This document shows, in pieces, positions 1,361 through 26,267 of a DNA stretch of 64,000 nucleotides. A model generated the notes under the pieces. The model was not told where the DNA came from. It did not search any database and was given only the letters and a program-made list of their open reading frames with translations. The translations under genes were made by a program, and so were the position numbers. Position 1 is the first letter of the stretch. Every line of letters begins with the position of its first letter. Origin of the DNA: Flavobacteriales bacterium 34_180_T64 (GTDB lineage: Bacteria > Bacteroidota > Bacteroidia > Flavobacteriales > Flavobacteriaceae); contig MAAR01000006.1 of the NCBI GenBank assembly GCA_002162765.1, positions 124,001 to 188,000 on the forward strand, given 5' to 3'.

Positions 1361-2038
1361 TTATTCAACGCGTTCTAAACCTGAAATGTATTCTATCTTT
1401 ATCTGTTTACCTGATGTTGTAATCAAGCCTTCTTTTTTAAGTTGTGACAACACTCTAATTGCAGATTCTGTTGCAGTTCCAACAATGCTTGCATAGTCTT
1501 CTCTCGAAAGTATAACGTTTAAATATCCCTTATCATCGTTTCCGAAATTATCTAATATATAAAGTAAGGCTTCAGCCAATCGTTTCTTTACAGATTTCTG
1601 CGCCATATTAACAATAATATTATCCGCTTCTTTTAAATCGTTAGCCATGTCTTGCAGCACATTCATCGAAAAACTAGAGTTCTGCTGCAAATCACCTATG
1701 ATTTCACTTTTAGGTATAAAACATACCTCCATATCATTTAAAGCAATGGCGCTCAAATTAGAAGACTCATCACTTATTAATGAACGTTGCCCCAACAAAT
1801 CACCTTTCATTACCAATTTCACAATTTGATCTCTACCATTTGCGCTTAGTTTTGTGAGTTTACATAAGCCGTCCTTAACACAAAAAACGCCATTTAGTGT
1901 TTCCCCTTCCTCAAAAATGACTTCGCCTTTTTTGATGAATTTCGAAGTTTTACACCCAGAAATCCTTACTAGTTCGTCTTTCGTTAAAGCTTTTAAAGAA
2001 TTAAATTGCCTTATAATACATTGTTCACATTTACTCAT
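1361..2038 (-). CDS. fnr: Crp/Fnr family transcriptional regulator, FNR-like (probable oxygen sensor)
   Basis: Start placed at 2038 (225 aa, beginning MSKCEQCIIRQF). The longer in-frame start at 2086 lies inside the FNR-like operator and would add an unconserved tail. Domains: N-terminal Cys pair C4-x2-C7, cyclic-nucleotide-binding fold (about 20-130) with C107 in DMEVCFIP, aligning by eye with E. coli FNR Cys122, and a C-terminal winged helix with recognition helix TATESAIRVLSQL. Glu and Arg that read the GA core in CRP/FNR are present; the position equivalent to FNR Ser212 is Ile. C4/C7 match FNR Cys20/Cys23, but the Cys29 equivalent is absent; C29 or C53 might serve as the fourth ligand. 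It is divergent from ccoI, and the shared operator lies between them. Probably the activator of the five FNR-type promoters in this window (inference). Confidence 0.88.
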   Translation of the reverse strand: MSKCEQCIIRQFNSLKALTKDELVRISGCKTSKFIKKGEVIFEEGETLNGVFCVKDGLCKLTKLSANGRDQIVKLVMKGDLLGQRSLISDESSNLSAIALNDMEVCFIPKSEIIGDLQQNSSFSMNVLQDMANDLKEADNIIVNMAQKSVKKRLAEALLYILDNFGNDDKGYLNVILSREDYASIVGTATESAIRVLSQLKKEGLITTSGKQIKIEYISGLERVE

Positions 2039-2056
2039 AACCCATTTTGTAACATG

Positions 2057-2064
2057 CAAAATTA
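2057..2064 (-). promoter_or_regulatory. Putative -7 element of the fnr-like gene
   Basis: On the minus strand this reads TAATTTTG, a full match to the Bacteroidota -7 consensus TAnnTTTG, about 19 nt upstream of the ATG at 2038. The FNR-like box at 2073-2086 is centred only 15.5 bp upstream of it, so a bound regulator would overlap the core promoter. That suggests negative autoregulation (inference). Confidence 0.5.
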
Positions 2065-2072
2065 ATGAAAAC

Positions 2073-2086
2073 ATGACAATAATCAT
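2073..2086 (+). promoter_or_regulatory. FNR-like box 1 (ccoI promoter / fnr intergenic)
   Basis: ATGACAATAATCAT, a dyad of the form ATGAY-N4-RTCAT. Its centre (2079.5) is 29.5 bp upstream of TACATTTG at 2109-2116, a TAnnTTTG element 12 nt before the ccoI ATG at 2128. If transcription starts about 11-12 nt after the first base of the -7 element, the box is centred near -41, the class II FNR position. No TTTG is present at the -33 position, as expected for an activator-dependent promoter. Confidence 0.8.
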
Positions 2087-2108
2087 ATAATAAACGCCAT
2101 AATCTTGT

Positions 2109-4515: not shown

Positions 4516-4531
4516 TTACAAATAATGAAAC

Positions 4532-4545
4532 ATGACAATTATCAT
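4532..4545 (+). promoter_or_regulatory. FNR-like box 2 (ccoS-NOQPG promoter)
   Basis: ATGACAATTATCAT, almost a perfect dyad. Centre 4538.5 lies 29.5 bp upstream of TAATTTTG (4568-4575), exactly the spacing seen at box 1. The flanking bases (CATGACAAT..ATCATATAATAAA) are nearly identical to those at box 1. No TTTG at -33. Confidence 0.82.
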
Positions 4546-4567
4546 ATAATAAAACGGGGCATGACAG

Positions 4568-10962: not shown

Positions 10963-12975
10963 TTAACGTATCACGTAAGATAAATTCAAATAAAAATTAC
11001 GTCCTTGTCTTGGTATATTATTCCAATCTGCATAGGTTGAATAATTTGTATCCAACATATTATCCACACCATATTTAAGGATTATTTTATTCTCTTTTGT
11101 ATAAAACGTATTCCCTAAATTCAGATTTAAAACAGCAAACTGTGGTGTTTCATCTTCTCCATAGAAACTATTATAATTACTTTGATTTCCATTTCCTTCT
11201 AGTTGAATAGCTGCATTAAAACGGGATATGTTATAACCAACTTCGGCTAAATATGAAAACGGCTTAATAAGTGGTAAATTTTCATCGTTACTCCCTTTTC
11301 CATAATTATATCCTACCGTTCCATTTATAGATAAGGATTTTGAAAACCTATAAGATGAATTTAAATACACATCAAAAATGGTAGCATGCGACAACGCATT
11401 ATAAACTTTGACGCCATTAGCTCCAATAGTCATTGCATTTAAAGATGGATCGATATTGCCAATAATATAATCCATAATATGAAAGTAAGAGGACTCCAAA
11501 CCAATATGAAATTTATTGAAATGATAATTGGCTTTTATATTTGCCTCTATAGCTTTTTCATTATTCAATGTAGGATTACCTATGTAATCAAAATTATCAA
11601 AACTATTAAAAAGGAAAAATCCATAGCCTTCACTCACTGAAGGTGCTCTTTCTCCATAGCCTAAGCCGAAAGAAACATCGTATGCTTTTTGTTTAAATGA
11701 GTAATCTGCGGCCATACTTGTTAGAAATCTATTTTTAGAATCTTCAATTTCTGGATAGAATATTTGAAGACTTTCTAATCCAACGTCTTTGGCGATTCTA
11801 TTGTGGTGATATCCCAATCGTAATGAAGCTGTAAGCGATTCCTTTTCATTTATAGAATACCTATCTTTTACATAGAATCCTGAATATAATGTTCTAATAT
11901 CCGGCCAGGTATACATAAACATTTCCGGTTGATTAGAATCATTAGGATACATAGTCATTTCGGCCAACGATCGATTATAAAAGCCATTCAAATTAAAAGA
12001 CAATTCGTGATTTTTAAAAGCTATAGCTGCTTTGCTATAAAAACCATACGTGTTGCTCCAACCTGGCATATCCATTCGAATAGCAACAACTGGACGTTTA
12101 GAATCGTCCATAACATGCGTTATTGTATTAAAATATAATTTAGACTCTAAAGATTTAAAAAAAGTAGAATCGTTACTGTAATTATGGGTGACTGAAGTAA
12201 TTATGGCTTCAGCAAGAGAGACATCCATTGGTAATGCCGGATAACCAATATCTGTAGCTTTATCATATATCACATTAGCTTCTAGCTTATGATTCTCTGT
12301 GAGTTTATATCCTACTTGTGTTGAGCTATTGTATTTCTCAAACTGAGAGTATAATACGTCTTGGTTTCTTCCAGAATCATAATTATCTGACTTACGGAAA
12401 ATACCATCAGTTTTAATGTAAAATTTATTTCCTGAATATTCCAATTCTAACCCTGCAGTTCTATAATTACCATTAGTTTCATACCCTAAATCAATACTGG
12501 TTTTTAATCCTGATTCGTAAAATTTAGTTTCCGGAAGCTTTAAATCTAAACCGCCTCCTACACAATGCCCATTTTCAGTCCCTGATTGACCAGATCCGAC
12601 GCTTACTTTTTCTAAATTAGAAACATCTACATAGGATGTTATGGGGTCCATTTTATCTGTACATGCACCAAAAATTTGCATGCCATCAATGGTCACAGTT
12701 AAACGCTGACTATTCATATTATTTATAGACGGTTCCCAAGCATAATTCCCACGTTTTATCATTGTGATTTTATTCGCTTTTTCTAAGAAATCATCAACAC
12801 TTGATAACGTTTTTTCTTGTCGATAATTACTTAATTTTCTTCGTCCGACAACTGTAATCTCATCTAGCTTAGTCGTATCTTTTTTAATACTGTTTAGGGT
12901 ATCGCTCTTCTGTTGTTGAGCACACATTAAGCCACTAAGCAACAAGCCAAAACAGCATATAATGAAATGTTTCAT
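10963..12975 (-). CDS. TonB-dependent copper receptor, NosA/OprC-like
   Basis: 670 aa outer-membrane receptor. Signal peptide about 1-19, N-terminal region DEITVVGRRK, plug domain (about 50-150) and 22-strand barrel ending in the aromatic-rich NLSYVIR. The plug holds IFGACTDKMDP, a C105-x3-M109 pair matching the CxxxM copper site described for Pseudomonas OprC and its relative NosA. The downstream HxM half of that site is not obvious here. Its position between the cbb3 and nos clusters, last in an operon with an FNR-type promoter, supports copper import for oxidase and N2O reductase. A long inverted repeat precedes the start. Confidence 0.85.
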   Translation of the reverse strand: MKHFIICCFGLLLSGLMCAQQQKSDTLNSIKKDTTKLDEITVVGRRKLSNYRQEKTLSSVDDFLEKANKITMIKRGNYAWEPSINNMNSQRLTVTIDGMQIFGACTDKMDPITSYVDVSNLEKVSVGSGQSGTENGHCVGGGLDLKLPETKFYESGLKTSIDLGYETNGNYRTAGLELEYSGNKFYIKTDGIFRKSDNYDSGRNQDVLYSQFEKYNSSTQVGYKLTENHKLEANVIYDKATDIGYPALPMDVSLAEAIITSVTHNYSNDSTFFKSLESKLYFNTITHVMDDSKRPVVAIRMDMPGWSNTYGFYSKAAIAFKNHELSFNLNGFYNRSLAEMTMYPNDSNQPEMFMYTWPDIRTLYSGFYVKDRYSINEKESLTASLRLGYHHNRIAKDVGLESLQIFYPEIEDSKNRFLTSMAADYSFKQKAYDVSFGLGYGERAPSVSEGYGFFLFNSFDNFDYIGNPTLNNEKAIEANIKANYHFNKFHIGLESSYFHIMDYIIGNIDPSLNAMTIGANGVKVYNALSHATIFDVYLNSSYRFSKSLSINGTVGYNYGKGSNDENLPLIKPFSYLAEVGYNISRFNAAIQLEGNGNQSNYNSFYGEDETPQFAVLNLNLGNTFYTKENKIILKYGVDNMLDTNYSTYADWNNIPRQGRNFYLNLSYVIR

Positions 12976-12989
12976 GTTTAATTTTTTAT

Positions 12990-13032
12990 AGCATACACAT
13001 TGAGATAGTTTCGTTTATTCAATGTGTATGCT
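12990..13032 (-). promoter_or_regulatory. Long inverted repeat upstream of the copper receptor gene
   Basis: Perfect 14-bp arms AGCATACACATTGA (12990-13003) and TCAATGTGTATGCT (13019-13032) flank a 15-nt loop. It lies between the lipoprotein stop (13052) and the receptor start (12975), ending 14 nt before the ATG. No T-run follows on the minus strand, so it is a poor intrinsic terminator. It could be an mRNA processing or stability hairpin, or an operator. Confidence 0.65.
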
Positions 13033-13051
13033 GTTAACTGCTGTTCTTTTG

Positions 13052-13903
13052 TTAAAACTCAAGCTCTAAATATAGTGAACTTTGATTGTTATCATCAGTA
13101 ACATCTTCACCTTTTAAAACTTCATCCATTGTATTAAGCAGCTTTAAATTAAGCACCCAATAACCGGTCATTGTAAGCGACAAATCTGCATGATACATAG
13201 TATCAGCTGCACTATAACTTAAATCCGTATTATTAGAAGATGTATGATTGTCCATTCCAGGCATACGAGGATCCAATGCAATCGTATAATCTTCTACAAT
13301 AGGAAATGACATCATGCTTTCCATTCTAAAGAGTCCTACTTTAAGGTTATTGATTGCGATTTTTGGAGCACTTGGCTCAATCATTGCAATAACATAATTA
13401 CTGCCATCATCAGCCATAAAGCTTGTCACATTTTGGTTTTCGGCTTGTGTAACAGTTATTGATTCAGTTGCCGTATATACCATATCAGCAATACTATAAT
13501 CTATAGTTAAAGACCATCCAGAACCATCCATTCCTGTCATTTGATACACTATATAACCTTCATAAACTGTATCTTTTCCCAATGACTTGGCGATAGATGA
13601 TCTTGGGCTTGAGTGTTGCATGGTAGGCATTTGCATCATTGGCAACCATGTAATTGAAGCATCTTCTACATATAAGTTGGTGGTATTATCCATTAATCTC
13701 ATACTGATTGCGTTGTAACCCGTACTAAAATTTCCAGTTTTACTGTATAACTCAATGGTATGTGTGTCGTTAATAATGTCATGTATTCTTATAAGTCCAT
13801 CGACTTCATTGACAATTTGAGGATCATCATTACTCTCATCTGTTGAACATGATGTTGACATTAAGGCAATAAATAGAATTGGTAGTATATATTTTAGTTT
13901 CAT
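13052..13903 (-). CDS. Met/His-rich lipoprotein, putative copper-binding
   Basis: 283 aa. Signal peptide with lipobox ending at C19 (STSCSTDESNDD); the acidic residues after Cys resemble surface-export signals of Bacteroidota lipoproteins (inference). Two similar beta-sandwich halves each contain Met/His clusters: WLPMMQMPTMQHSSP near 87-101 and DPRMPGMDNHTSS near 214-226. The second is followed by MYHADLSLTMTGYWVLNLKL, a pattern like YtkA/FixH-type domains. Such clusters suit Cu(I) binding. It lies between a small Cys protein and the NosA/OprC-like receptor, so it may hand copper to the receptor. No exact family recognised. Confidence 0.7.
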   Translation of the reverse strand: MKLKYILPILFIALMSTSCSTDESNDDPQIVNEVDGLIRIHDIINDTHTIELYSKTGNFSTGYNAISMRLMDNTTNLYVEDASITWLPMMQMPTMQHSSPRSSIAKSLGKDTVYEGYIVYQMTGMDGSGWSLTIDYSIADMVYTATESITVTQAENQNVTSFMADDGSNYVIAMIEPSAPKIAINNLKVGLFRMESMMSFPIVEDYTIALDPRMPGMDNHTSSNNTDLSYSAADTMYHADLSLTMTGYWVLNLKLLNTMDEVLKGEDVTDDNNQSSLYLELEF

Positions 13904-14005: not shown

Positions 14006-14401
14006 CTAGCTGAAATTTGGTGGAGGTGTATCTATTTCGAGATACAATTTGGAAACCCTATGAGTTGTATATAATGTTTCCTTTTGGGATAATCCAAAAC
14101 ATATAGATGGAAATTCTAAGGCATCAATAGTAGTAATACAAAACACATCAAGGGACAATCGTTTACTTTCTTGAAATGGTAGATCAGAACCCGAATTTGA
14201 ATTGGTTCCTTTTAATTCTTTACGCAATTGACATTTACCATTACAACCTTGTTGTTTCTCTTTTTGAATGCATAATGTTTTTGCAATAAAATCCTGATTA
14301 ACAATAAAATCTCCTATAATGACTAGTGTGTTTATATTATGTGCAAATAATATAAATACTAGAATAAAGGCCATTATTTTATGAGCAATTGCTGAAATCA
14401 T
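14006..14401 (-). CDS. Small membrane-anchored Cys protein, first gene of the copper operon
   Basis: 131 aa from ATG 14401; a start at Met10 (14374) is equally possible because the predicted transcript starts almost at 14401. One N-terminal hydrophobic helix (about 8-30), then AKTLCIQKEKQQGCNGKCQLRKEL with C44, C53 and C57, then a low-complexity tail ending DTPPPNFS. I recognise this CNGKC-type small protein only as a recurring Bacteroidota companion of copper or metal TonB receptors, without a known function. Preceded by FNR-like box 3 and followed by the Met-rich lipoprotein and the receptor. Confidence 0.7.
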   Translation of the reverse strand: MISAIAHKIMAFILVFILFAHNINTLVIIGDFIVNQDFIAKTLCIQKEKQQGCNGKCQLRKELKGTNSNSGSDLPFQESKRLSLDVFCITTIDALEFPSICFGLSQKETLYTTHRVSKLYLEIDTPPPNFS

Positions 14402-14405
14402 AGTA

Positions 14406-14413
14406 CAAACTTA
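14406..14413 (-). promoter_or_regulatory. -7 promoter element of the copper-uptake operon
   Basis: Minus-strand TAAGTTTG, a TAnnTTTG match. Its first base (14413) is 29.5 bp from the centre of FNR-like box 3. Predicted start point is near 14401-14402, at the annotated ATG, so either the message is leaderless or translation begins at 14374. Confidence 0.68.
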
Positions 14414-14435
14414 GAGCTATTCCAAGACTTAAAAC

Positions 14436-14449
14436 ATGACAAAAATCAC
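14436..14449 (-). promoter_or_regulatory. FNR-like box 3 (copper-uptake operon promoter)
   Basis: Minus strand GTGATTTTTGTCAT (plus ATGACAAAAATCAC), one mismatch from ATGAY-N4-RTCAT at the outermost base. Centre 14442.5 is 29.5 bp upstream of the TAAGTTTG element for the minus-strand operon 14401-10963. It sits between the stop of the last nos-operon gene (14456) and the copper operon. Confidence 0.75.
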
Positions 14450-14455
14450 AAACTC

Positions 14456-14914
14456 CTATAATTTAAAATGCCTGAAATAATTATGTATAAGTGATTCAAG
14501 ATTTGACAAAGCATTTACCGATTCTGAGGTAGTTGTTGACTCTTTCAACATAGAAATCTCATCTAACATAGGAACAAGAACAACATGTAGTTGATCATGA
14601 GATTCCCCTTTCATGGAACAATTTTTAATTACAAAACTCGTTTGTTTCGACAGTAATTCTCCCAGGTCGACATAATCCTTTTGTGAATCAGTTTTGAATT
14701 TTCTAATTATCGAATCCATTTTTAATAATCCAACATGAGTCTCATCATTTACTTGCCATTTTTCACCACGATCAAATTTTAATTGCAGCGTATCTAAAAG
14801 TGTGATTTCTACAGATTCTTCGGTGTTAGTCACCGCTTTTTTTGGTTCATTCACACAACTAAAAACGCTACTTAAAACAACGAGTAATACTATGATTTTC
14901 ATTTGATTAGACAT
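14456..14914 (-). CDS. Lipoprotein of unknown function at the end of the nos operon
   Basis: 152 aa with lipobox LSSVFSC (C20). The mature part contains LLDTLQLKFDRGEKWQVNDETHVG and, near the middle, KNCSMKGESHDQLHVVLVPML, where Cys, Met and two His residues could bind metal (inference). It starts 2 bp after the stop of the 605-aa protein and ends 7 bp from FNR-like box 3, so it is the last nos-operon gene. I do not recognise a family; similar small lipoproteins appear with copper and haem enzymes in Flavobacteriia. Confidence 0.65.
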   Translation of the reverse strand: MSNQMKIIVLLVVLSSVFSCVNEPKKAVTNTEESVEITLLDTLQLKFDRGEKWQVNDETHVGLLKMDSIIRKFKTDSQKDYVDLGELLSKQTSFVIKNCSMKGESHDQLHVVLVPMLDEISMLKESTTTSESVNALSNLESLIHNYFRHFKL

Positions 14915-14916
14915 AA

Positions 14917-16734
14917 CTATATTATTTTTTTAAAAGTCTCAATCTGACTTAAACTATTAATTTCAACTTCTAAAACCTGCATGCGTGCTCTACTAAAATT
15001 TAAATCATTGAGAATTGTAGATTTCGTATCCTTAAATTGGTCATTGAGATTAATAAACAAATCGTGATAATAATTAATTCCTTCCTGTAAATTTTTAGCA
15101 AATGTCTTCAGATACCTTTCTTGTTTTTTAGTGACTACTATTTTAGTTTCTTCGATTTGTGTTTTAAGATAATCTATATAGATATTAAGCTCTTTGATAA
15201 ACATATTGGGTCTATCTGTTCTCGAAATCATATTAGAACGTCCATAGATATGATCGGTTATATCTTTTAAACTCATTATTTTTGAGAAGTAGGCCAAATT
15301 TGGCCCTGGGCAAACTGCAACCCCGTCGCCTTCAGTTTTTGTACTAATATTATGGGTTAGTAACGCAGAAGTCCCTAATCCAACACAGATGCATGATTTT
15401 TCTACAATTTTATTGTATTTAGAATTATACATATCCGATTCCAATTCCTGTGAATCTAGCTCTTTTAATTTTAGATTCTGGTATTGTCTAGAGGCTGTAC
15501 AAATTGCTTTTTCGGTAAATTCGTTATTAAGAGCCACGAACTTTTTAGGGCAAGAACTCCCAGGTCGTCCTTTATCTATTAATTGTGTCTTTTCATCATC
15601 CTTAGTGTTCCCTCGAAGGTTATTAAAAGGAACCCCTAAAGGAGAAATATGACTTAAGTACAGATCCTTTTCTTCAGCTTTCATGAGCTTACTCAAAGTC
15701 TCATCATCTACTGTAGTGGATTCTGGCACTAGAAGAAATGGAGATCCCCATCCTACAGAATCAACCTCGTAATGATTTAACAAAAACTCATGTTCTTCAG
15801 AATCACCTACACCGCCTTGAGCGCTTATTTTTAAATCTAAAAAAGTTTTTGGAACCTTTCGGTTTTTAGCTGTTAATGCATTTATTAAAAGCGCATTAAC
15901 CGTAGTAATCAATTCTTGTTTATTGTTTTTAAATTCTCCTAATATTGGTCCAATTAAATGGCCATCGGTTGCAAAGGCATGGCCGCCACAGTTAAGTCCA
16001 GATTCTATTCTGTATTCTGATACCCAAAGCCCTTTTTTTGCCAAAAACTTACCTTGTATTAATGCAGATCTATAATCACTTACTTTTAGAATAATTTTCT
16101 TTTTTATCACACCATTTTCATTAGGATAAAAATCATCAAACTGCTCTAAATAACTATATAATCTAGGATTCATTCCTGCTGAAAACACCATTGAAGATGA
16201 TAAATTACTACTCGCATATCCCCTAAGGGCAGCATGAGCATCATTATAAATAGTCGGCAATTTTTCATTTTTAATATAATTATCCTTATCAACCTTCGTC
16301 ATTATATTGACATCGATATTTCCTAAAGAAAGATTATCGTCTAACCACTTCTTTACTTCACTTATATTAAACCGATCTGCCGTTAGTTTTTTAAACTCTT
16401 GCTTTTTTGAAGAACTGTCAGGTAACATATTAAAATAGTTCTTAAGATCATTGTTTTTTTCTAAAGTCACATTTTTAAGATCGTCAAATTTTTCTTCAAC
16501 CAATTCACTAATTAAGTTTAAATACGCGGTAATGCGTTTCGCTCTGAAATCGTCTATTTTGTCTGTAATCTCGGCATATGGAACACGGTATTTACTACTG
16601 TACATTTTTCTTAATTTTTCTAGCAGGATATCATCCAATAGAGAAATTACCGAATCCATCCCTAAATGGGAAACTTTTAACGGCGTATCGATTGTAAATC
16701 CAATTCCCATAACAGGGATATGAAATGTATGCAT
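14917..16734 (-). CDS. Large unknown protein, possible nitronate monooxygenase-like FMN TIM barrel
   Basis: 605 aa, no signal peptide, starting MHTFHIPVMGIGFTIDTPLK. Three stretches in the middle read like nitronate monooxygenase/FabK-type FMN barrels: SGLNCGGHAF (246-254; family EAGGH), ISAQGGVGDSEE (303-314; family AAGGI) and VGWGSPFLLVPEST (327-340; family GTRFLATxES). Six cysteines (249, 395, 412, 448, 450, 475) include CICVG and a GRPGSSCPK segment, and residues about 510-600 look like a coiled coil. It starts 11 bp after nosY, so it is probably co-transcribed with nos genes. The flavoprotein idea is a by-eye motif match, not established; biochemical role unknown. Confidence 0.6.
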   Translation of the reverse strand: MHTFHIPVMGIGFTIDTPLKVSHLGMDSVISLLDDILLEKLRKMYSSKYRVPYAEITDKIDDFRAKRITAYLNLISELVEEKFDDLKNVTLEKNNDLKNYFNMLPDSSSKKQEFKKLTADRFNISEVKKWLDDNLSLGNIDVNIMTKVDKDNYIKNEKLPTIYNDAHAALRGYASSNLSSSMVFSAGMNPRLYSYLEQFDDFYPNENGVIKKKIILKVSDYRSALIQGKFLAKKGLWVSEYRIESGLNCGGHAFATDGHLIGPILGEFKNNKQELITTVNALLINALTAKNRKVPKTFLDLKISAQGGVGDSEEHEFLLNHYEVDSVGWGSPFLLVPESTTVDDETLSKLMKAEEKDLYLSHISPLGVPFNNLRGNTKDDEKTQLIDKGRPGSSCPKKFVALNNEFTEKAICTASRQYQNLKLKELDSQELESDMYNSKYNKIVEKSCICVGLGTSALLTHNISTKTEGDGVAVCPGPNLAYFSKIMSLKDITDHIYGRSNMISRTDRPNMFIKELNIYIDYLKTQIEETKIVVTKKQERYLKTFAKNLQEGINYYHDLFINLNDQFKDTKSTILNDLNFSRARMQVLEVEINSLSQIETFKKII

Positions 16735-16745
16735 ATTTTGTTGTT

Positions 16746-17528
16746 TTAAAAGTCTTTCTTTTTTGATTTAAACATAATTCTTAGCACGGGTATAACGACC
16801 CAAACACTTAGCATAATTAATGAAACTATCAAACCAATGTTTGTTCCAAAAAACTGTTTAAAAACAGCGCCTGTATAACCTAGCAATGCTGATATATCTA
16901 GTTTTAATAAAATTAGTGTTCTAGATAAATCAATTGGATTTAGCATCGTACCTACTAATGATAATTTATCTAATGGATAATCTTCAAACATAATTAATGT
17001 CATTAAGAATATTCCATCATAGATAATGGCTAAGAATAGCCATAATAATATGGCATATCCAAATCCTTTAATTTTATTTTCATTCGATAGCGCAATATTA
17101 AAGGCTAATGCCGTAAATATAAACGTTAGAAATGTTCCGGTTATGAGCAACAAAGAAAAGTCCCAAATTGCCGAAGACTCAAACAATCCATAAAACACAA
17201 ATGGTAAACCTAGTCCTAAAATCAAACTCATTGAAAGTGACAAGGCAACACCAAGATACTGGCCTAAAAATATAGACGATCGCTTTAAAGGTTGCGCCAA
17301 TAATAATTCGGTAAACTCTTTTGAATTATAGTAATACATCACACCGAATATGGTTCCAATAAGTGGAACCAGCACAATAATTACATTCATTAAAGTGATG
17401 ACCGCTTTAGACAGGTCGTTATTCAAAAACAATAACACAACTCCAAGCAATAAATAGAACGCGAAATACACGTAGCTCCATCGGCTTCGCATTAAATCGT
17501 AAAAACTGTATTTTAATATTTTAAGCAT
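16746..17528 (-). CDS. nosY: NosY-type ABC transporter permease
   Basis: 260 aa with six predicted transmembrane helices (first FYLLLGVVLLFLNN at about 25-38). The segment YYNSKEFTELLLAQPLKRSSIFLGQYLGV matches the ABC-2/NosY permease family. With NosF and NosD it forms a membrane complex needed for CuZ maturation of N2O reductase. Its start overlaps the end of nosF by 8 bp, indicating translational coupling. Confidence 0.92.
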   Translation of the reverse strand: MLKILKYSFYDLMRSRWSYVYFAFYLLLGVVLLFLNNDLSKAVITLMNVIIVLVPLIGTIFGVMYYYNSKEFTELLLAQPLKRSSIFLGQYLGVALSLSMSLILGLGLPFVFYGLFESSAIWDFSLLLITGTFLTFIFTALAFNIALSNENKIKGFGYAILLWLFLAIIYDGIFLMTLIMFEDYPLDKLSLVGTMLNPIDLSRTLILLKLDISALLGYTGAVFKQFFGTNIGLIVSLIMLSVWVVIPVLRIMFKSKKKDF

Positions 17529-18228
17529 GATTATCTATAAGTATTGATGCTATTGCATGTTCAAAGTCAGGTTGATTCGTTTTCGTTTTGAGTGCGCTAA
17601 TTGTACCTTTAAAGTAAATTTTTCCTTCTAAAAGAAACACAATTTCATCAGACATTTCTTCAACAAAACTCATAATATGTGATGTGATTAATATCGTTTT
17701 ACCTTTAGCTTTCTCCTTTTGTATCAATTCTTTTAATCGGATCAATGAAATAGGATCTAAACCAGTAGTTGGCTCATCTAAAATAATTAATGGGCTGTTA
17801 AACATGAAGGTTAAAACGATGTTCACTTTTTGCTTAGTTCCTCCAGAAAGGTTACCCAATTTTTTATCTAAAAATGGTTCTAATTTAAACAGTTCAATTA
17901 AATATTGGTCTTCATCGGTGTTTCCTCTCAAATCCTTAATCATTCTGATCAATTCTTTTACTTTCAAATTACTTGGAAAATTTGCGATTTGAGGTAAATA
18001 GTCAATTTGACGTCTGTAATCAGAGTTCTTTTTAATATTTTCTCCAAGTACAGTAATCTCACCTTCATTAGGAATCACCATGCCCAAAATTGATTTTATA
18101 AGCGTAGTTTTTCCTGAACCATTTGGTCCAAGCACTGCGAAAATTCCACCATCAGAAATATTAAGATCTACACCACTTAAAACGACATTCTTATTGAATT
18201 TTTTATGTAAATTTTGAATGCTTACCAT
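17521..18228 (-). CDS. nosF: NosF-type ABC transporter ATPase
   Basis: 235 aa. Walker A GPNGSGKTTL (34-43), signature LSGGTKQK (about 129-136), Walker B LIILDEPTTGLDP and switch His in TSH. It energises the NosDFY complex, whose cargo (sulfur species, or copper handed over from NosL) supports the Cu4S CuZ centre of NosZ. Overlaps nosD by 7 bp upstream and nosY by 8 bp downstream. Confidence 0.93.
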   Translation of the reverse strand: MVSIQNLHKKFNKNVVLSGVDLNISDGGIFAVLGPNGSGKTTLIKSILGMVIPNEGEITVLGENIKKNSDYRRQIDYLPQIANFPSNLKVKELIRMIKDLRGNTDEDQYLIELFKLEPFLDKKLGNLSGGTKQKVNIVLTFMFNSPLIILDEPTTGLDPISLIRLKELIQKEKAKGKTILITSHIMSFVEEMSDEIVFLLEGKIYFKGTISALKTKTNQPDFEHAIASILIDNHA

Positions 18229-19466
18229 TCTATTTTTTTTATTAAAGGGTTAGTATCTAATAAATTATCTGGTGTAAAAACAGGTGACACTTTTTCAGAA
18301 AAATCTATAATATCTATGAATAGACTTCGTAACAAGATGATTGTTTCAGGGGTACGATTTACAATATATGAAAACAACTTTACAGGTCTATATGGTACAT
18401 CACCAATACCATCTTTGTCCAAATCATATCCTGTATAATTACTCCAATAGTTTCTATCAAATACATTATCGTTTATCTTGCTATTGTAAGATATGTCAAA
18501 GGAATTATATAGAAAATTATTTTCTATAAAACTATTATTATAACAGGCTCCTCTAACTTTTATGGCCCAACCATTGCTAATAAAGTTATTGTTTTTATAG
18601 GTTATTCTATTTGAGCCTTCAACGTTTATTCCAATTGTGTTTTCTTCAAATGTATTTCCTAATATTTCTGCATCATTGATTTCCTTAAGCAACATTCCGT
18701 AGGATGCTGTACCCCAGTTTTCTTTAAAAACATTATTTAGCATTTTGATTCTTTTAGAAAACATAACTGCCACACCAGCGCCATTATTTTCAAATGTATT
18801 GTCCTGATAAATGTCATCGTTAGAAAACATAAAATGCAATCCATATCGTAGATTGTTGGCACTTACATTATTTTTGATCAAGCAATCGTTAGAGAACTCC
18901 AAATATATTCCATCCCGAACGTGTTGCACAAAATTATGCTCTATTTGAATGTTTTTGCTGTACCAAAGTTGAATACCATTTCCCGAATTATATTCCTCAA
19001 CGGCATCACCGATTATTTTGTTATGGAACACTTTACCGTCTCTTGATTTTTCAATATAAATTCCAAAGAATAATTTCTCTAATACTAAATTTTGAATGGT
19101 AAAATTTTTGCTTCTTCTCACTCTTATTGCCGCATAATCTTCCGTATAACTTGTACCTACATTTATTAGGAACAAACCATCTACCGTTACATCATCAGAA
19201 ACAATTGTTATAATCTCTCCTTTTAATTCACCATCAATAATTGGGTAATTTTCGCCAATAATTGTTAATGGCTTGTCAACTTTTATATTATGCTCCTTAT
19301 AAGTTCCTTTTTTAACCAGAATAGTATCAAAATCTTTGGCGTAGCTAATAGCATCCTTAAGAGATGACATCGTACAGTTTTCGCAGACTTCAATAGTTTG
19401 AGAATAGATAGTATTCGTAAAAAATACTACGAAGTATAAGACACTATATTTAAACAATCGTTCCAT
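18222..19466 (-). CDS. nosD: Periplasmic N2O reductase maturation protein NosD
   Basis: 414 aa. Signal peptide about 1-22 ending SQ. The body is a parallel beta-helix of CASH/PbH1 repeats rich in Asn ladders (for example IQNLVLEKLFFGIYIEKSRD, ILGNTFEENTIGINVEGSNR), closing with the NosD-typical YDLDKDGIGDVPYRP. NosD docks on NosFY and delivers to apo-NosZ. Sits between nosL and nosF in the usual order. Confidence 0.95.
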   Translation of the reverse strand: MERLFKYSVLYFVVFFTNTIYSQTIEVCENCTMSSLKDAISYAKDFDTILVKKGTYKEHNIKVDKPLTIIGENYPIIDGELKGEIITIVSDDVTVDGLFLINVGTSYTEDYAAIRVRRSKNFTIQNLVLEKLFFGIYIEKSRDGKVFHNKIIGDAVEEYNSGNGIQLWYSKNIQIEHNFVQHVRDGIYLEFSNDCLIKNNVSANNLRYGLHFMFSNDDIYQDNTFENNGAGVAVMFSKRIKMLNNVFKENWGTASYGMLLKEINDAEILGNTFEENTIGINVEGSNRITYKNNNFISNGWAIKVRGACYNNSFIENNFLYNSFDISYNSKINDNVFDRNYWSNYTGYDLDKDGIGDVPYRPVKLFSYIVNRTPETIILLRSLFIDIIDFSEKVSPVFTPDNLLDTNPLIKKIEW

Positions 19467-19526
19467 TTAAGTACTAAAATTTAAAAACACAAGATATTAT
19501 AATCTCTATAGTTTAATTTATTAAAA

Positions 19527-19961
19527 TTAGTTTAAATGTGAAAGCAGTTCGTTCCAACTATACAATTTTCCGTCTTTATCTGATTTAACTTTGCTAGCTT
19601 CTTCCTTGCTATCAAATGCCGAAAGATAGGCTCCCATTGGACTCGGAATGTTTTCTGATATCAAAAAAGTTGCTTGTGTTGCATCTATAAGAGTTCCAGG
19701 GACGTTATAGTTATTAGATAGATAGTGTTTGATATTAGATGTATCAAATTCACTCAAAAAGTTTACCATGCATTCTGTTGCATCAAATTTATAAACTTTT
19801 CCCTTTTTAGTTACTACTTCCGCAGCGTGAAGTTTGTCCACAATTGTCATCTGGCAAAAGTAACAACCATCATTACCATAATCTATGGCTTTAGGTGATA
19901 CAGAACAACTGTAGAGCAGCATAATCGCTGCCATGAGTAAATAGTGTTTTAGTGTTTTCAT
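19527..19961 (-). CDS. nosL: NosL copper chaperone lipoprotein
   Basis: 144 aa. Lipobox Cys at 19 (LLYSCS). The NosL signature CYFCQM (C33, C36, M38) and the later FDATECMVNFL are present; these Cys/Met residues bind Cu(I). NosL supplies copper to NosD/NosZ during CuZ assembly. It is encoded 60 bp before nosD and 30 bp after the 199-aa membrane protein. Confidence 0.93.
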   Translation of the reverse strand: MKTLKHYLLMAAIMLLYSCSVSPKAIDYGNDGCYFCQMTIVDKLHAAEVVTKKGKVYKFDATECMVNFLSEFDTSNIKHYLSNNYNVPGTLIDATQATFLISENIPSPMGAYLSAFDSKEEASKVKSDKDGKLYSWNELLSHLN

Positions 19962-19991
19962 AATTTTAGTGTTTTAGTGTTTTGACTCGCT

Positions 19992-20591
19992 CTACATAGT
20001 CAACGGTTTTTTATGATTTTTCTTTCCAACTAGATAAGCTATCAAAGAAGCTGCAATACCCAGTCCTAAAAAGTAAGCTCCTAATCTGGGATAAGAATGT
20101 GCTTTAAAGTTTAAGATATCTTTACTTCCAAATAATGGCGGCTGAAAGCCCATTGCAGTTCCATCCGGATTCGTAAATTTCATAATAGCCTTAGGATCCA
20201 AATCATGTCCATAATCATGTTCCCATAAGTAAAAATCATACAGTCCCGCACTACATAAAATTATCATTAATATGAACCAAAACATGAACCATTTATAATT
20301 CCCTCTAAAGGCAATTAACAGTCCAATAACGGTAGTAATAAGAATTCCTGCTGGGAAAATTTTAAATTCTGGAATGGCATCAGGAATATATTTCATCCCC
20401 ACATAATGATTCATTAAGTTAATATTTTTAATGTCATGTGGATTCGCATCAGCAAAATCATTAATATGAATATTCATCCCTAAAGGAATGGGATATTGTG
20501 GTGCTTCAAGTGTAATGTTCCACAAAGGAAAAATAAAAAGTGCTAGCGGTAATAATGCAGCTAAAAGCATTATGATATTTGACTTTTTCAT
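19992..20591 (-). CDS. Conserved-type 4-TM protein of the nos operon, function unknown
   Basis: 199 aa, about four transmembrane helices (near 7-25, 78-98, 100-120 and 168-190) with a large first periplasmic loop (PIPLGMNIHINDFADANPH) and a second loop rich in His/Asp (LWEHDYGHDLDPKAIMKF). The His and Met residues could contact copper or haem (inference). No NosR is encoded in this cluster, as usual for clade II nos operons, so this protein is a candidate for an accessory or electron-transfer role. It follows nosZ after a hairpin at 20655-20685. Confidence 0.7.
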   Translation of the reverse strand: MKKSNIIMLLAALLPLALFIFPLWNITLEAPQYPIPLGMNIHINDFADANPHDIKNINLMNHYVGMKYIPDAIPEFKIFPAGILITTVIGLLIAFRGNYKWFMFWFILMIILCSAGLYDFYLWEHDYGHDLDPKAIMKFTNPDGTAMGFQPPLFGSKDILNFKAHSYPRLGAYFLGLGIAASLIAYLVGKKNHKKPLTM

Positions 20592-20647
20592 GATTTTTTA
20601 CTTAACTATTATTGAAATAAATCCAGTTTGCAATACTTAGTGATTTT

Positions 20648-20690
20648 AAAAAGAAAGGCGAGAGTGACGAATCATCTCTCGCCTTGTTAG
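20648..20690 (-). terminator. Hairpin between nosZ and downstream nos genes (attenuator or processing site)
   Basis: A 10-bp GC-containing stem pairs AAGGCGAGAG (20655-20664) with CTCTCGCCTT (20676-20685), loop 11 nt. On the minus strand it is followed by TTCTTTTTAAAA, a terminator-like U tract. Being inside the operon, it probably gives partial termination or 3'-end protection, so that nosZ is expressed above nosL-D-F-Y. Confidence 0.75.
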
Positions 20691-20727
20691 GAAAATAAAC
20701 ACTAAAACAAAATTTCCCTATTTTATT

Positions 20728-22698
20728 TTATTCAATATCTTCACCAAGTGACCACTTTATTGGAGTGTTACTATCTGCTGGAGATACTCTAATATAACCT
20801 TGCATTTCTTGGTGCAATGCAGAACAGAAATCTGTACAATAAAATGGCCATACTCCTACTTTTGTTGGTTCCCATACAGAAGATTTAGTTTGTCCTGGCA
20901 TAATTAATAACTCTGACGTATTTTGACCTAACACTGCAAATCCATGAGGTACATCAAAATCTTGTTCCAAATTAGTAACATGGAAATATACTTTATCTCC
21001 AACTTTAACACCTTCAATATTATCTGGTGAGAAGTGACTTCTTATAGTCGTCATATAAATATGTACTTCGTTACCTTTTCTTACCACTTTAGTATCATCA
21101 TCAGTAAAAGCAGCATAAGGATGCTTATTGTCTTCTAAATTGTATATTTTTTGAGAACGCTCTTTAATAAGATCTGCTCGCATTGCTGCTGCATAATGAG
21201 GCTCTCCATGTGTTGGAAAATCTAAAAGCAATTCCATTTTATCACCAGAAATATCATATAATTGAGCACTATGCTCTAACTCTGGACCTGTTGGTAAATA
21301 ACGGTCTTTTGTGATTTTGTTCATCGCAAACATATATTTACCTTGAGGTTTTCCTGAGTTTCCTCCTGGAATGGTTAAGTGACCAACAGAGTAAAACGTA
21401 GGTTGTCTATCAACAACTTCCCAAGTTCCTAATTTCCATTTTACAACTTCAGAAGAAATAAAGAAGGTTGTATATGCATTTCCTTTTCCATCAAACTCTG
21501 TATGTAAAGGTCCTAATCCTGGTTGTTCAACAACACCAGCTAAAACATCTTCGAAGTTTAAGATTGGAATTCCATATGCTTCTCCAGCAAATTTCTCATT
21601 TTCAATAGCGTCTAACATTTTAGTAAATGAATGCACTGTTAAATTAGCTGAAAGTTTACCATTACCAACAATATATTCTCCAGAAGGATCAACATCACAA
21701 CCATGAGGCGATTTTGGCGTTGGCAAGAAATATACAGCTCCAGGAACATCAATTGGGTTAACTACACGCACTTCTTTTATCATAGTAGACGTTGCAGTAT
21801 GCGTGTGCTCATCGTATACATTATGAGCATAGTCAGCTGGCATCATAGTTCCACCACCATTATTTACATATTCTTCAATTTTTTTCCAGTTTACCGCTGC
21901 AATAAAATCTTTATCGTTTTGAGATGCGTTAACCTCTAATAAAGTACTTGCTTCTTCAGTATTATAAGTGGTAAAGAAGAACCATCCGTGAGATTTTCCA
22001 CGTCCAGGATGTGATAAATCGTAGTTAAAACCAGGCATTAGTACTTGGAATTTTATATCCATATTACCCGTTTCTGGTGCTACACTAATAAATGATAAAG
22101 CGCCTTGAAAATTACCTTTATAATCTTTAATTGGCATATCGCGTTGCGGAATTGGCACAGAAAAACGCGTACCTGCAACTACATACTCTGTATTTTCTGT
22201 TACAAATGACGAACTGTGGTTACCAGCACTATTTGGTACTTCGATAATCTCGGTTGTTTCAAATGTCTTTAAATCAATTTTCGCAATTCTAGGTGTATTA
22301 TTTTCATTGATAAAAATGAAACGCCCATCAATTTCTCCATTTGTTTGAGATATGTCTGGATGGTGAGAATCTCCCCAAGGAATAAATCCGTGAGAGGTAT
22401 TAAGCATTGGTTTGGTCTCCTCAGAATAACCATATCCAGAAGTAGGAAACTGTGAGAATACAGGAATCTCTTTAAACATTCTTCCTGATGGCAATCCATA
22501 AACAGTTAAGTTACCGCTATAACCTCCAGAAATAAAGGCGTAAAATTCATCATGCTCTCCTGGTGCGACATATACTTTTTCTGCAACATTACTTGCAAGG
22601 GCACCAGATTCACGATCTGATTTTGTTGTGTTATTGCAACTTGTAAATGCTATTAAAACAGTTAAAAGTGCAATAGTTGATTTAATTATAGTCTTCAT
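20728..22698 (-). CDS. nosZ: Nitrous-oxide reductase NosZ, clade II (Sec-dependent, putative lipoprotein)
   Basis: 656 aa. Reduces N2O to N2. The N-terminus is a Sec-type leader with no twin-Arg motif, and it ends in AFTSCNN, which resembles a Bacteroidota lipobox (C21). The seven-bladed propeller carries the His-rich CuZ stretches DSHHPDISQTNG, GNHSS, HPGRGKSHGW, AHNVYDEHTH, SPHGCDVDP and GPLHTEFDGKGNAY. The C-terminal cupredoxin domain has the CuA motif C621-x3-C625-x3-H629-x2-M632 (CTDFCSALHQEM). Length and all copper ligands seem intact. Second gene after cytochrome c in an FNR-box 5 operon. The Sec leader and operon content point to clade II. Confidence 0.97.
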   Translation of the reverse strand: MKTIIKSTIALLTVLIAFTSCNNTTKSDRESGALASNVAEKVYVAPGEHDEFYAFISGGYSGNLTVYGLPSGRMFKEIPVFSQFPTSGYGYSEETKPMLNTSHGFIPWGDSHHPDISQTNGEIDGRFIFINENNTPRIAKIDLKTFETTEIIEVPNSAGNHSSSFVTENTEYVVAGTRFSVPIPQRDMPIKDYKGNFQGALSFISVAPETGNMDIKFQVLMPGFNYDLSHPGRGKSHGWFFFTTYNTEEASTLLEVNASQNDKDFIAAVNWKKIEEYVNNGGGTMMPADYAHNVYDEHTHTATSTMIKEVRVVNPIDVPGAVYFLPTPKSPHGCDVDPSGEYIVGNGKLSANLTVHSFTKMLDAIENEKFAGEAYGIPILNFEDVLAGVVEQPGLGPLHTEFDGKGNAYTTFFISSEVVKWKLGTWEVVDRQPTFYSVGHLTIPGGNSGKPQGKYMFAMNKITKDRYLPTGPELEHSAQLYDISGDKMELLLDFPTHGEPHYAAAMRADLIKERSQKIYNLEDNKHPYAAFTDDDTKVVRKGNEVHIYMTTIRSHFSPDNIEGVKVGDKVYFHVTNLEQDFDVPHGFAVLGQNTSELLIMPGQTKSSVWEPTKVGVWPFYCTDFCSALHQEMQGYIRVSPADSNTPIKWSLGEDIE

Positions 22699-22725
22699 TG
22701 TTATAAAAATTAGATTAGTGTTTGT

Positions 22726-23304
22726 TTAGTCTTCACTTGGTGGTAATAATACTTTATCTATTACGTGAACAATTCCGTTACCGGCTTTTATTGAAGCTAA
22801 GATTTTAGCGCCACCAATCATAGGTTCTCCATCTACTACTTCAACTTGTACATAACCATTATTGGCTTGTCCCAATTTTTTAAATTTCTTCAAAAAGTCT
22901 TTTGAATAGTTTCCAGGAGTTACATGGTATTTCAAAATATTTGCTAATGCGGCTTTATTCTCCGGCTTAAGCAAATTTTCAACAGTTCCTTCTGGTAAAG
23001 CAGCAAATGCTTCATTAGTTGGTGCGAAAACCATTAAAGGTCCTGCATTAACTAATACGTTTTCTAGCTCCGCAGCTTGTACCGCAGCTACTAAAGTTGT
23101 ATGATCTTTTGAACCAATAGCAATACTTAAAACTGTTGGTGTACTCTCATCATCTTTAATAAATGCTTGTCCAGATCTTTCAGTCGATTTTTTTTCAACT
23201 TTTGTATCTGTTGAGCTCGTTGAGGCATCTTTAGTGTCATTCTTGCAAGCCACGAAAGCTAAGGCAAGAACCGCTACAAGAATTAATTGTTTAATTGTTT
23301 TCAT
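22726..23304 (-). CDS. Fasciclin-domain lipoprotein of the nos operon
   Basis: 192 aa. Lipobox LAFVACKND (C20), a Ser/Thr/Lys linker, and one FAS1 domain (about 55-190) with the two conserved blocks VFAPTNEAFAALPEGTVENLL and KILASIKAGNGIVHVIDKVLLPP. Fasciclin domains mediate protein or surface contacts. In Bacteroidota this gene type recurs beside nosZ, perhaps as a scaffold for NosZ and cytochrome c at the membrane (inference). Starts 6 bp after the cytochrome gene. Confidence 0.9.
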   Translation of the reverse strand: MKTIKQLILVAVLALAFVACKNDTKDASTSSTDTKVEKKSTERSGQAFIKDDESTPTVLSIAIGSKDHTTLVAAVQAAELENVLVNAGPLMVFAPTNEAFAALPEGTVENLLKPENKAALANILKYHVTPGNYSKDFLKKFKKLGQANNGYVQVEVVDGEPMIGGAKILASIKAGNGIVHVIDKVLLPPSED

Positions 23305-23310
23305 ATGATA

Positions 23311-23814
23311 TTATTTAAGTGTTCTAAAATATTCTAAAACAGCTCTAGCATCATCTTCTGATAAGTTTTGATTTGCCATCGGAGAACCGTTAAATTCAAT
23401 TAATAAGTCCTTAGCTAAAGCATCTTTTTGAACCATTTCATCTGGATTTAGAATCATATTCATTACCCATTCAGGAGAACGACGATCTAAAATTCCTGTT
23501 GGAGATGGACCTATAAATTTCTTATTTGCTCTATGACATGCTGTACACATTTTTTTAAACACATCTGCACCATGCGTTGCCATGTTTTGATCAATTTCAT
23601 TACCTAGATCAACAGATGTTATTGGACCTACACCTTTATTGGTAAGATCTACTCTTTTAGAAGCAGGCGTTTTTTCTGCTTTCGGAGTTTCCTTTTGTTC
23701 AGTAGTTGCTTTCTTATCATAAGAAAATCCTTCTTTCTTTTTTTCTTCTTTACCACCACAACTCATTAGCAGGATTGTAAATAAAACAGTCATTAATTTT
23801 AGTGTTGTTTTCAT
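23311..23814 (-). CDS. Mono-haem cytochrome c lipoprotein, first gene of the nos operon
   Basis: 167 aa from ATG 23814 (MKTTLKLMTVL). The upstream in-frame ATG at 23847 lies ahead of the predicted transcription start and would spoil the signal peptide. Lipobox LLMSCGG (C19), a Lys/Glu-rich linker, then a class I cytochrome c with C90TACH94 and Met ligand in NGSPMANQ. Probable electron donor to the NosZ CuA centre. Directly downstream of FNR-like box 5. Confidence 0.92.
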   Translation of the reverse strand: MKTTLKLMTVLFTILLMSCGGKEEKKKEGFSYDKKATTEQKETPKAEKTPASKRVDLTNKGVGPITSVDLGNEIDQNMATHGADVFKKMCTACHRANKKFIGPSPTGILDRRSPEWVMNMILNPDEMVQKDALAKDLLIEFNGSPMANQNLSEDDARAVLEYFRTLK

Positions 23815-23832
23815 ATCATTTAATTTATACCA

Positions 23833-23840
23833 CAAAAATA
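23833..23840 (-). promoter_or_regulatory. -7 promoter element of the nos operon
   Basis: Minus-strand TATTTTTG (TAnnTTTG), first base 23840, 26 nt before the cytochrome c ATG at 23814 and 29.5 bp from the centre of FNR-like box 5. Confidence 0.7.
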
Positions 23841-23862
23841 TAACCATGTGCCTTTATATAAT

Positions 23863-23876
23863 ATGATAAAAATCAT
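23863..23876 (-). promoter_or_regulatory. FNR-like box 5 (nos operon promoter)
   Basis: ATGATAAAAATCAT on the plus strand (minus ATGATTTTTATCAT), an ATGAY-N4-RTCAT dyad centred at 23869.5. The spacing to the nos -7 element is 29.5 bp, as at the other four sites. This would place N2O respiration under the oxygen-responsive regulator. Confidence 0.78.
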
Positions 23877-23904
23877 ATTTAAGATAAAAACATCCTTTAT
23901 AAAT

Positions 23905-24832: not shown

Positions 24833-26197
24833 TTAAACAGTCATTGAAAACAACTGTGTTTTAGGTTGATTCCTTTGCAATAACACGTCAAATGCCATGC
24901 ATATATTTCTAACAAAAGGCTTTCCTTTTTCTGTTACAATAATTTGATTTGAACTAAGCACAATTAAGCCATCATTCTCCATTTCTTTTAATCTGATTAG
25001 AACGTCAGACACTTCCTTAAAATATAAATTTTCACCATCCCAAGATGTTTCAAATTGACACATTAGGTTGAGTATATGTTTTCTAATTATCAGATCTTCA
25101 TCGTTCAATATATGACCGCGATATACCGGAATTGTATGTTCATCTATTAAATGATAATAGTCTTCTATCCCTTTTACATTTTGAGCAAACCCATACCAAC
25201 TATCACTTATTGAAGATACACCTAGACCAATCATAGCTTGTGTTTTTGAAGATGAATATCCCATGAAATTTCTATGTAGTGAACCGTCTTTCATCGCCGA
25301 ATATAAAGTGTCCGTTTCAAGAGCAAAATGATCCATTCCAATTTCATGATAACCTGATTCTGCCAAAAGCGATTTACCAGTTTCATATTGCATTCTTTTG
25401 CTTTCCCCAGAAGGCAAGTTGCTTTCACTAAATCCGCGTTGCCCATTACCTTTAATCCACGGTACATGTGCATAACTATAAAACGCAATACGATCTGGCA
25501 TTAAACTTTTGGTTTTAGCGATTGTTTCTTTTACATGCGCTTCCGTTTGAAACGGTAAGCCAAATATTAAATCATGACTTATTGATGTATATCCAATCTC
25601 TCTCGCGGCTTCTGTTACACGTTTTACATTTTCAAATGGTTGGATTCTATGAATTGCTTTTTGAACAATTTCATTATAGTCTTGAACTCCAAAACTTACC
25701 CGTTTAAATCCAAGATCATACAGTGTTTTTAAATGTTCTTTTGTTGTATTATTTGGATGCCCTTCAAAACTAAACTCATAACCCTCAGCACGTACCGCTC
25801 TTTTAAGTATACTATCGATAAGTTTTTTCAGGTTTTCTGGAGTAAAAAACGTTGGTGTACCACCACCTAAATGTAACTCTTTTATTTTTGGTTTTGCGTT
25901 AAATAAATCACAATACAAATGCCATTCTTTTATAACCGCCTCAATATATGGCGATTCAACTTCATGTCTTTTTGTAATACGTTTATTACAACCACAAAAA
26001 GTACATAAGCTTTCACAAAACGGTAAATGAATATATAAACTTAAGCCTTCACTAGAATTGCTTTCATTAAATGACTTTATTAAGGAAGATTTCCATTCTC
26101 TAAGCGAAAATGTTTGCGTATCCCAATACGGTACGGTTGGGTAACTTGTATACCTTGGACCAGCAACATTATATTTGTTCACTAAAGAATTACTCAT
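24833..26197 (-). CDS. hemN: Oxygen-independent coproporphyrinogen III oxidase HemN
   Basis: 454 aa, typical length. Radical-SAM site C61-x3-C65-x2-C68-x-C70 within HLPFCESLCTFCGCNK, followed by LHLGGGTPTFF and the HemN features RVSFGVQDYNE and YSYAHVPWIKGNGQRGF. It decarboxylates coproporphyrinogen III to protoporphyrinogen IX without O2, so haem for cbb3 and cytochromes can be made under low oxygen. Own promoter with FNR-like box 4; followed by usp. Confidence 0.96.
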   Translation of the reverse strand: MSNSLVNKYNVAGPRYTSYPTVPYWDTQTFSLREWKSSLIKSFNESNSSEGLSLYIHLPFCESLCTFCGCNKRITKRHEVESPYIEAVIKEWHLYCDLFNAKPKIKELHLGGGTPTFFTPENLKKLIDSILKRAVRAEGYEFSFEGHPNNTTKEHLKTLYDLGFKRVSFGVQDYNEIVQKAIHRIQPFENVKRVTEAAREIGYTSISHDLIFGLPFQTEAHVKETIAKTKSLMPDRIAFYSYAHVPWIKGNGQRGFSESNLPSGESKRMQYETGKSLLAESGYHEIGMDHFALETDTLYSAMKDGSLHRNFMGYSSSKTQAMIGLGVSSISDSWYGFAQNVKGIEDYYHLIDEHTIPVYRGHILNDEDLIIRKHILNLMCQFETSWDGENLYFKEVSDVLIRLKEMENDGLIVLSSNQIIVTEKGKPFVRNICMAFDVLLQRNQPKTQLFSMTV

Positions 26198-26222: not shown

Positions 26223-26244
26223 AAGCATCGGACCCTCTAAAAAT

Positions 26245-26258
26245 ATGACATATGTCAT
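26245..26258. promoter_or_regulatory. FNR-like box 4, perfect palindrome between hemN and sod
   Basis: ATGACATATGTCAT is a perfect 14-bp palindrome centred at 26251.5. It is 29.5 bp from the hemN -7 element. In the other direction it is 39.5 bp from a weaker candidate -7 element of the superoxide dismutase gene, about one helical turn further, so an effect on that gene is possible but less certain. Confidence 0.8.
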
Positions 26259-26267
26259 GTAAAGAAG

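Follow-up and report, generated by a model that had tools for sequence, protein, structure and literature searches.

The FabX-like gene and its surroundings

The window analysed here comprises 64,000 nucleotides of a contig (MAAR01000006.1) of Flavobacteriales bacterium 34_180_T64. It carries a nos operon and, directly behind nosY, a gene encoding a 605-aa protein that is referred to below as FabX-like. The genes needed for the following description are:

1361..2086, minus strand: Crp/Fnr-family regulator with an N-terminal CxxC (Pfam cNMP_binding and HTH_Crp_2)
14917..16734, minus strand: FabX-like 605-aa protein (intact ORF; family alignments of 57 and 95 members; AlphaFold)
14917..23847, minus strand: putative transcription unit (gaps of -8 to 136 bp)
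24833..26197, minus strand: hemN, oxygen-independent coproporphyrinogen III oxidase (NCBIfam TIGR00538, E = 2.7e-132)

The ORF of the 605-aa protein, for which the initial annotation had given no strand, proved to be intact and real and is located on the minus strand. It follows nosY after 11 bp and is separated by 2 bp from the next gene (152-aa ORF). The order of genes in the putative transcription unit is cytochrome c, fasciclin-like, nosZ, 199-aa ORF, nosL, nosD, nosF, nosY and FabX-like gene. The 199-aa protein encoded between nosZ and nosL (19992-20591) recurs in ten loci and lacks a convincing Pfam family. Directly 3' of the FabX-like gene, two small ORFs (152 and 131 aa; 14006-14914) are located on the same strand, for which no family was found. 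Further downstream (10963-13903), a TonB-dependent copper-receptor-like protein (TIGR01778, E = 3e-41, below the cut-off) and a YtkA-like lipoprotein are encoded, and these two proteins plausibly provide the copper supply for NosZ.

When we searched Pfam, NCBIfam, PADLOC and the PDB sequences with the 605-aa protein and with a 21-member profile, no relative was found. The Pfam NMO family (PF03060) did not match the protein at E-values of up to 1 and was also absent from the 25 Pfam families listed for 21 members of the FabX-like family (E up to 5). Weak matches to squalene synthase and to a spindle protein were rejected as chance similarity of helical or low-complexity sequence. The literature searched, in which subscription papers are thinly covered, held no description of the family. 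Full-length homologues (42-70% identity) are present in 37 of 99 relatives, and across the Bacteroidota we found homologues in 142 of 395 sampled genomes, mostly as one copy per genome. The family is common in this phylum, yet it is missing from the profile libraries searched. On plasmids, no homologue was found. One genome (G076) contains a second, fragmented copy of the gene (C1:4371170-4372874), and in another one (G050) the copy is split by a stop or frameshift (C165:19519-21307).

Predicted fold, conserved residues and comparison with FabX

The structure of the 605-aa protein was modelled with AlphaFold using either 21 homologues (model 1, pLDDT 84.4) or 57 homologues (model 2, pLDDT 92.6, pTM 0.92), and in the latter run all five models scored above 90. 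The initial annotation had guessed a TIM-barrel fold, and the prediction bears this out: it gives an eight-stranded FMN-type barrel (strands 27-31, 140-145, 181-185, 213-218, 238-244, 302-306, 326-328 and 358-361), to which solved members of the superfamily align with Z-scores of 17-27. The N-terminal extension of about 240 residues described in the same annotation is absent, and the predicted barrel begins near residue 4. The extra length of the protein is accounted for by a helical insertion (about residues 35-135) and by a C-terminal helical tail. As for the coiled coil suggested for the C-terminus, its helical character was recovered in the model (511-529, 536-561, 571-604), and the tail is poorly conserved beyond about residue 556. 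The parts of the protein are:

15652..16734, minus strand: FMN-type TIM barrel, residues 1-361 (AlphaFold; VIA-align to FabX, Z 26.7)
16330..16632, minus strand: family-specific helical insertion between barrel strands 1 and 2, residues 35-135 (AlphaFold)
15973..15993, minus strand: NCGGHAF with His252, residues 248-254, equivalent to catalytic His182 of H. pylori FabX (MAFFT, three modes)
15235..15651, minus strand: FabX-type C-terminal cluster domain, residues 362-500, with Ser364, Cys395, Cys412, Cys448, Cys450 and Cys475
14920..15222, minus strand: C-terminal helical tail, residues 505-605 (AlphaFold)

The three motifs that had first drawn attention to the protein, NCGGHAF (248-254), ISAQGGVGD (303-311) and VGWGSPFLLVPES (327-339), are present. 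Among 57 family members (42-67% identity) N248, C249, G250, G251, H252 and F254 of the first motif are invariant, and the same holds for Q306, G307 and G308 of the second and for G328, W329, F333, L334 and E338 of the third. Since the motif cores are invariant throughout these members, the motifs are not due to chance. The Cys-rich segments mentioned in the annotation are also real, as none of the 95 sequences deviates at C249, C395, C412, C448, C450 or C475. His252 and Asn143 aligned with their FabX equivalents in all three MAFFT modes; they are invariant in the 57 sequences and conserved in at least 98.5% of the 95. The predicted structure places the protein among the flavin TIM barrels of the NMO/FabK/FabX superfamily, and the catalytic-His block occupies its usual position.

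For both AlphaFold models, the best solved match was H. pylori FabX (HP0773; PDB 7e1q, 9lt5), with VIA-align Z-scores of 26.5 and 26.7 over 329-330 residues at 3.1 Å. For the second model FabX ranked above FabK (23.4), PfaD (21.2) and the nitronate monooxygenases (at most 19.3). Foldseek by itself places PfaD, DfnA and FabK above FabX, so that it is the VIA alignment together with the sequence comparison that favours FabX. Thus, the likeness to nitronate monooxygenases and FabK that was noted initially holds at the level of the superfamily, but the closest solved structure is FabX and not a nitronate monooxygenase. FabK and PfaD have the same barrel and His block as the 605-aa protein (Z 21-23), but FabK lacks the Cys-rich C-terminal domain, and no PUFA or polyketide synthase genes were recognised near the FabX-like genes. 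Class I and class II nitronate monooxygenases share the superfamily fold and the GGH block, but not the extra conserved cysteines.

FabX is an acyl-ACP dehydrogenase/isomerase of 363 residues that carries FMN and a [4Fe-4S] cluster and has a 266-residue barrel (PMC8626469), and therefore the 330 aligned residues include part of the cluster domain; the VIA alignment extends to FabX residue 363. Its cluster ligands are C300, C304, C308 and C320, the catalytic H182 is held by S273, and N99 binds FMN (PMC8626469). In all three modes of the joint MAFFT alignment with FabX orthologues, N143, H252, S364 and C395 of the 605-aa protein aligned with the counterparts of N99, H182, S273 and C300. The C320 counterpart was matched by C448 in two modes, and the C304 counterpart by C412 in a single mode. 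It can be seen that the catalytic His, the flavin-binding Asn, an SP(L/V)G motif and the Cys-rich C-terminal domain are in register in the two proteins. However, the insertion at 35-135 and the 100-residue C-terminal tail are features of the longer 605-aa protein, the identity in the structural alignment is about 19-20%, the cysteine spacing differs and the PDB sequence searches gave no match. The FabX cluster motif CX3CX3CX11C is absent from the FabX-like family, which has five invariant C-terminal cysteines with a spacing of its own. Since the exact FabX spacing is not shared, we filed these proteins as a FabX-like family and not as FabX proper.

Profile comparison with hhalign matched the FabX-like family to a FabX-type set (A4), which consists of FabX orthologues and a 420-aa FabX-type family (A2), with an E-value of 6e-9 and a score of about 76 versus at most 25 for shuffled columns. 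The corresponding E-value for a FabK/NMO set was 0.003. With the five FabX orthologues alone, the similarity was weak (probability 5-33%), with a score of 38.5 versus 21.7 for shuffles. The alignments to the wider FabX-type set often stop short of the cluster domain, and when the C-terminal domain alone was compared with FabX-type proteins, weak profile similarity was obtained (best E = 4e-4). True FabX orthologues are present in five sampled Bacteroidota genomes; the FabX cysteine motif had not turned up when NMO-like loci were first scanned for it, and the orthologues came from five other genomes.

The A2 'VEGPLAGGHLGF' proteins (about 420 aa) occur in two other Bacteroidota families and match FabX at E = 3e-33. 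Their TCLCxG motif and other cysteines are in register with C395, C412, C448 and C450 of the 605-aa protein, but they are about 185 residues shorter and are found only in genomes without the FabX-like family. When FabX-type proteins (88 genomes) and the FabX-like family (142 genomes) were compared among the 395 genomes, there was no shared genome (genus-level P = 0.005), an exclusivity that is dominated by one family. The 420-aa family (L186-L196) carries CWTCG and TCLC cysteine motifs, and the NCBIfam models for FabK and dihydroorotate dehydrogenase match it with scores far below their cut-offs.

Genomic linkage, co-occurrence and an upstream palindrome

Within 6 kb of the FabX-like gene, we found nadA/nadB in 15 of 95 loci, nos genes in 10, Rrf2 regulators in 8, hemN in 5, nirK and cbb3 oxidase in 4 each, RIC in 3 and nrdD/nrdG in 2. 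At least one of nos, nad, hemN, nrd, nirK, RIC and cbb3 was present in 29 loci and none of them in 66. In two loci (L035 and L043) the gene order is nrdG-nrdD-target-Rrf2-nadA-nadB, where the target is the FabX-like gene. The products of nadAB, hemN and nrdDG carry out, without O2, steps that otherwise depend on it. In the kynurenine route, NAD synthesis opens with an O2-consuming dioxygenase (PMC4217691). No fatty-acid synthesis genes were recognised as recurring neighbours of the FabX-like gene. In some distant genomes (L080, L139, L141) it adjoins genes of a beta-eliminating lyase (tryptophanase-like).

NadA was found in 27 of 37 relatives with the FabX-like gene versus 11 of 62 relatives without it (OR 12.5, P = 1e-7, uncorrected for shared ancestry). 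When the analysis was restricted to genomes of at least 2.8 Mb within the family, we obtained an odds ratio of 17 (P = 8e-5, shared ancestry again uncorrected). For NosZ, the odds ratio was 4.0 (P = 0.002, with the same reservation on ancestry), and significance was lost both with the 2.8 Mb size cut and among NadA-positive genomes. NadA co-occurrence accounts for much of the nosZ association of the FabX-like gene. For class III ribonucleotide reductase, co-occurrence is suggestive only (FabX-like gene in 4 of 5 NrdD genomes, P = 0.06).

A half-site search upstream of stand-alone FabX-like genes yielded the palindrome TATGA-N6-TCATA (10 of 88 versus 4 of 586, P = 6e-7, uncorrected for the roughly 5,000 patterns tried). 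Allowing up to one mismatch, the extended form TATGAYN4RTCATA precedes the FabX-like gene in 20 of 88 loci versus 30 of 851 other genes (P = 2e-9), the pattern having been found and tested on the same loci. Many of these 30 genes are hemN, nadA, nos or cbb3 genes or share the promoter of the FabX-like gene divergently. In the window, the following sites were located:

2072..2087, unstranded: palindrome with one mismatch, at the start of the Crp/Fnr-family regulator gene
4531..4546, unstranded: palindrome with one mismatch, upstream of cbb3 oxidase genes
23862..23877, unstranded: perfect Crp/Fnr-like palindrome TATGATAAAAATCATA, just upstream of the nos operon
26244..26259, unstranded: palindrome with one mismatch, between hemN and a divergent Cu/Zn superoxide dismutase gene

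The whole genome contains only nine perfect sites, which include those of the nos operon, nadAB and hemA. When one mismatch is allowed, the genome contains 87 sites versus 69 for a reversed-pattern control, which is no clear enrichment, and single weak sites therefore mean little. E. coli-type Fnr and Crp sites were not enriched upstream of the FabX-like genes, and the literature searched, thin in its coverage of subscription papers, held no Bacteroidota Fnr site of the TATGAYN4RTCATA form. The Crp/Fnr-family protein encoded at 1361-2086 is a candidate reader of the palindrome. It appears that the FabX-like gene and the nos operon belong to one low-oxygen regulon.

Possible function of the 605-aa protein

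The FabX likeness, the linkage to and shared inheritance with genes of low-oxygen biosynthesis, and the mutual exclusion with FabX-type proteins are most economically, and most likely, read as an O2-independent route to unsaturated fatty acids. To the view that the 605-aa protein is a divergent FabX/UfaA-type enzyme of such a route, we assign about an even chance. In N. gonorrhoeae, the anaerobic synthesis of unsaturated fatty acids is reported to depend on a FabX homologue, UfaA (NGO1024), with an unknown electron acceptor (PMC11300592). We liken UfaA to the 605-aa protein by its description. The acceptor of FabX is O2, which is a point against O2-independent function.

Computation establishes the fold, the homology to FabX-type proteins, the conserved residues, the gene linkage, the co-occurrence and the common upstream site. 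The cofactors, the substrate and its conversion, the electron acceptor, the pattern of expression and the identity of the regulator are inferred, and we picture them as follows. The gene is probably expressed when oxygen supply is short. FMN would be seated in the TIM barrel, and the invariant C-terminal cysteines would hold a [4Fe-4S]-type cluster. His252 may remove the C2 proton of a saturated acyl-ACP (or acyl-CoA), with the hydride passing to FMN; the trans-2 product would then isomerise to cis-3, and the cluster would hand the electrons on. The outcome would be unsaturated membrane fatty acids while the O2-dependent desaturases cannot work. More tentatively, and with slightly less than an even chance, the family may form a third, undescribed FabX-type class with its own iron-sulfur ligands and added domains, serving facultatively anaerobic Bacteroidota as their O2-independent synthase of unsaturated fatty acids under a Crp/Fnr-type regulator that reads TATGAYN4RTCATA and controls it together with nos, nadAB, hemN and class III ribonucleotide reductase. 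If true, this would explain how many of these bacteria make unsaturated membrane lipids without oxygen, and it would place unsaturated lipid synthesis, along with N2O respiration, in a defined low-oxygen regulon.

The main rival reading is that another acyl compound or a quinone serves as substrate. The protein would then still be an FMN/iron-sulfur enzyme of FabX type within the same low-oxygen regulon, but it could work as a quinone reductase or as an O2-independent dehydrogenase, isomerase or enoyl reductase in the metabolism of lipids, quinones, pigments or amino acids, and we consider this possible but rather unlikely. Z-scores above 21 were also obtained for other members of the superfamily, namely the enoyl reductases PfaD and FabK and the NADH:quinone reductase PA1024; the extra domains and the new cysteine spacing suggest altered specificity, and the lack of recognised lipid genes near the FabX-like gene points in the same direction. 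On the other hand, VIA-align ranks FabX first for both models, and among the profile comparisons the FabX-type set scores best. Desaturation would also be the O2-dependent step that most obviously still lacks a replacement next to nadAB, hemN and nrdD. It is improbable that the protein is an accessory flavoprotein of NAD synthesis that works with NadB or NadA under anoxia. The nadA/nadB genes are neighbours in 15 loci and nadA co-occurrence is strong, but NadA is absent in 10 of 37 relatives with the gene and the gene is absent in 11 of 38 relatives with NadA. Moreover, NadB and NadA suffice elsewhere.

The initial annotation had suggested a role coupled to nos, and in this form the protein would be a factor for NosZ maturation, a nitronate monooxygenase or a flavoenzyme that detoxifies nitrogen oxides. 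The gene does lie inside a nos operon here, the neighbouring Rrf2 regulators (8 loci) and RIC repair genes (3 loci) fit such a role, and nitronate monooxygenases belong to the same superfamily. However, the homologues are found mostly away from nos clusters, an outcome that the initial annotation itself had named as refuting its idea, NosZ is absent in 17 of 37 relatives with the gene, the gene is absent in 14 of 34 relatives with NosZ, and there is no association among NadA-positive genomes. Nitronate monooxygenases also rank below FabX, FabK and PfaD, and nitronate oxidation requires O2. We therefore regard these alternatives as very unlikely, and coupling of the FabX-like gene to NosZ was rejected by the linkage and co-occurrence tests. 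Under the preferred reading, an O2-independent route to unsaturated fatty acids, the position of the gene in the nos operon would reflect the membership of gene and operon in one Crp/Fnr-type low-oxygen regulon and not an action of the gene product on NosZ. The genome of the window also encodes an O2-dependent 3-hydroxyanthranilate dioxygenase and two desaturase-family proteins, and their retention is expected if nadAB and the FabX-like gene are low-oxygen backups.

The palindrome TATGAYN4RTCATA supplies a ready list of further low-oxygen genes. Other perfect sites (L216, L217, L221, L222, L223) precede an SBF transporter gene, the gene of a YceI protein, hemA, the gene of a 295-aa protein and a cupin gene, and these five are candidate members of the regulon. 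At the hemA site an AraC regulator gene is located divergently, and hemA itself lies ahead of a ferrochelatase-like gene.
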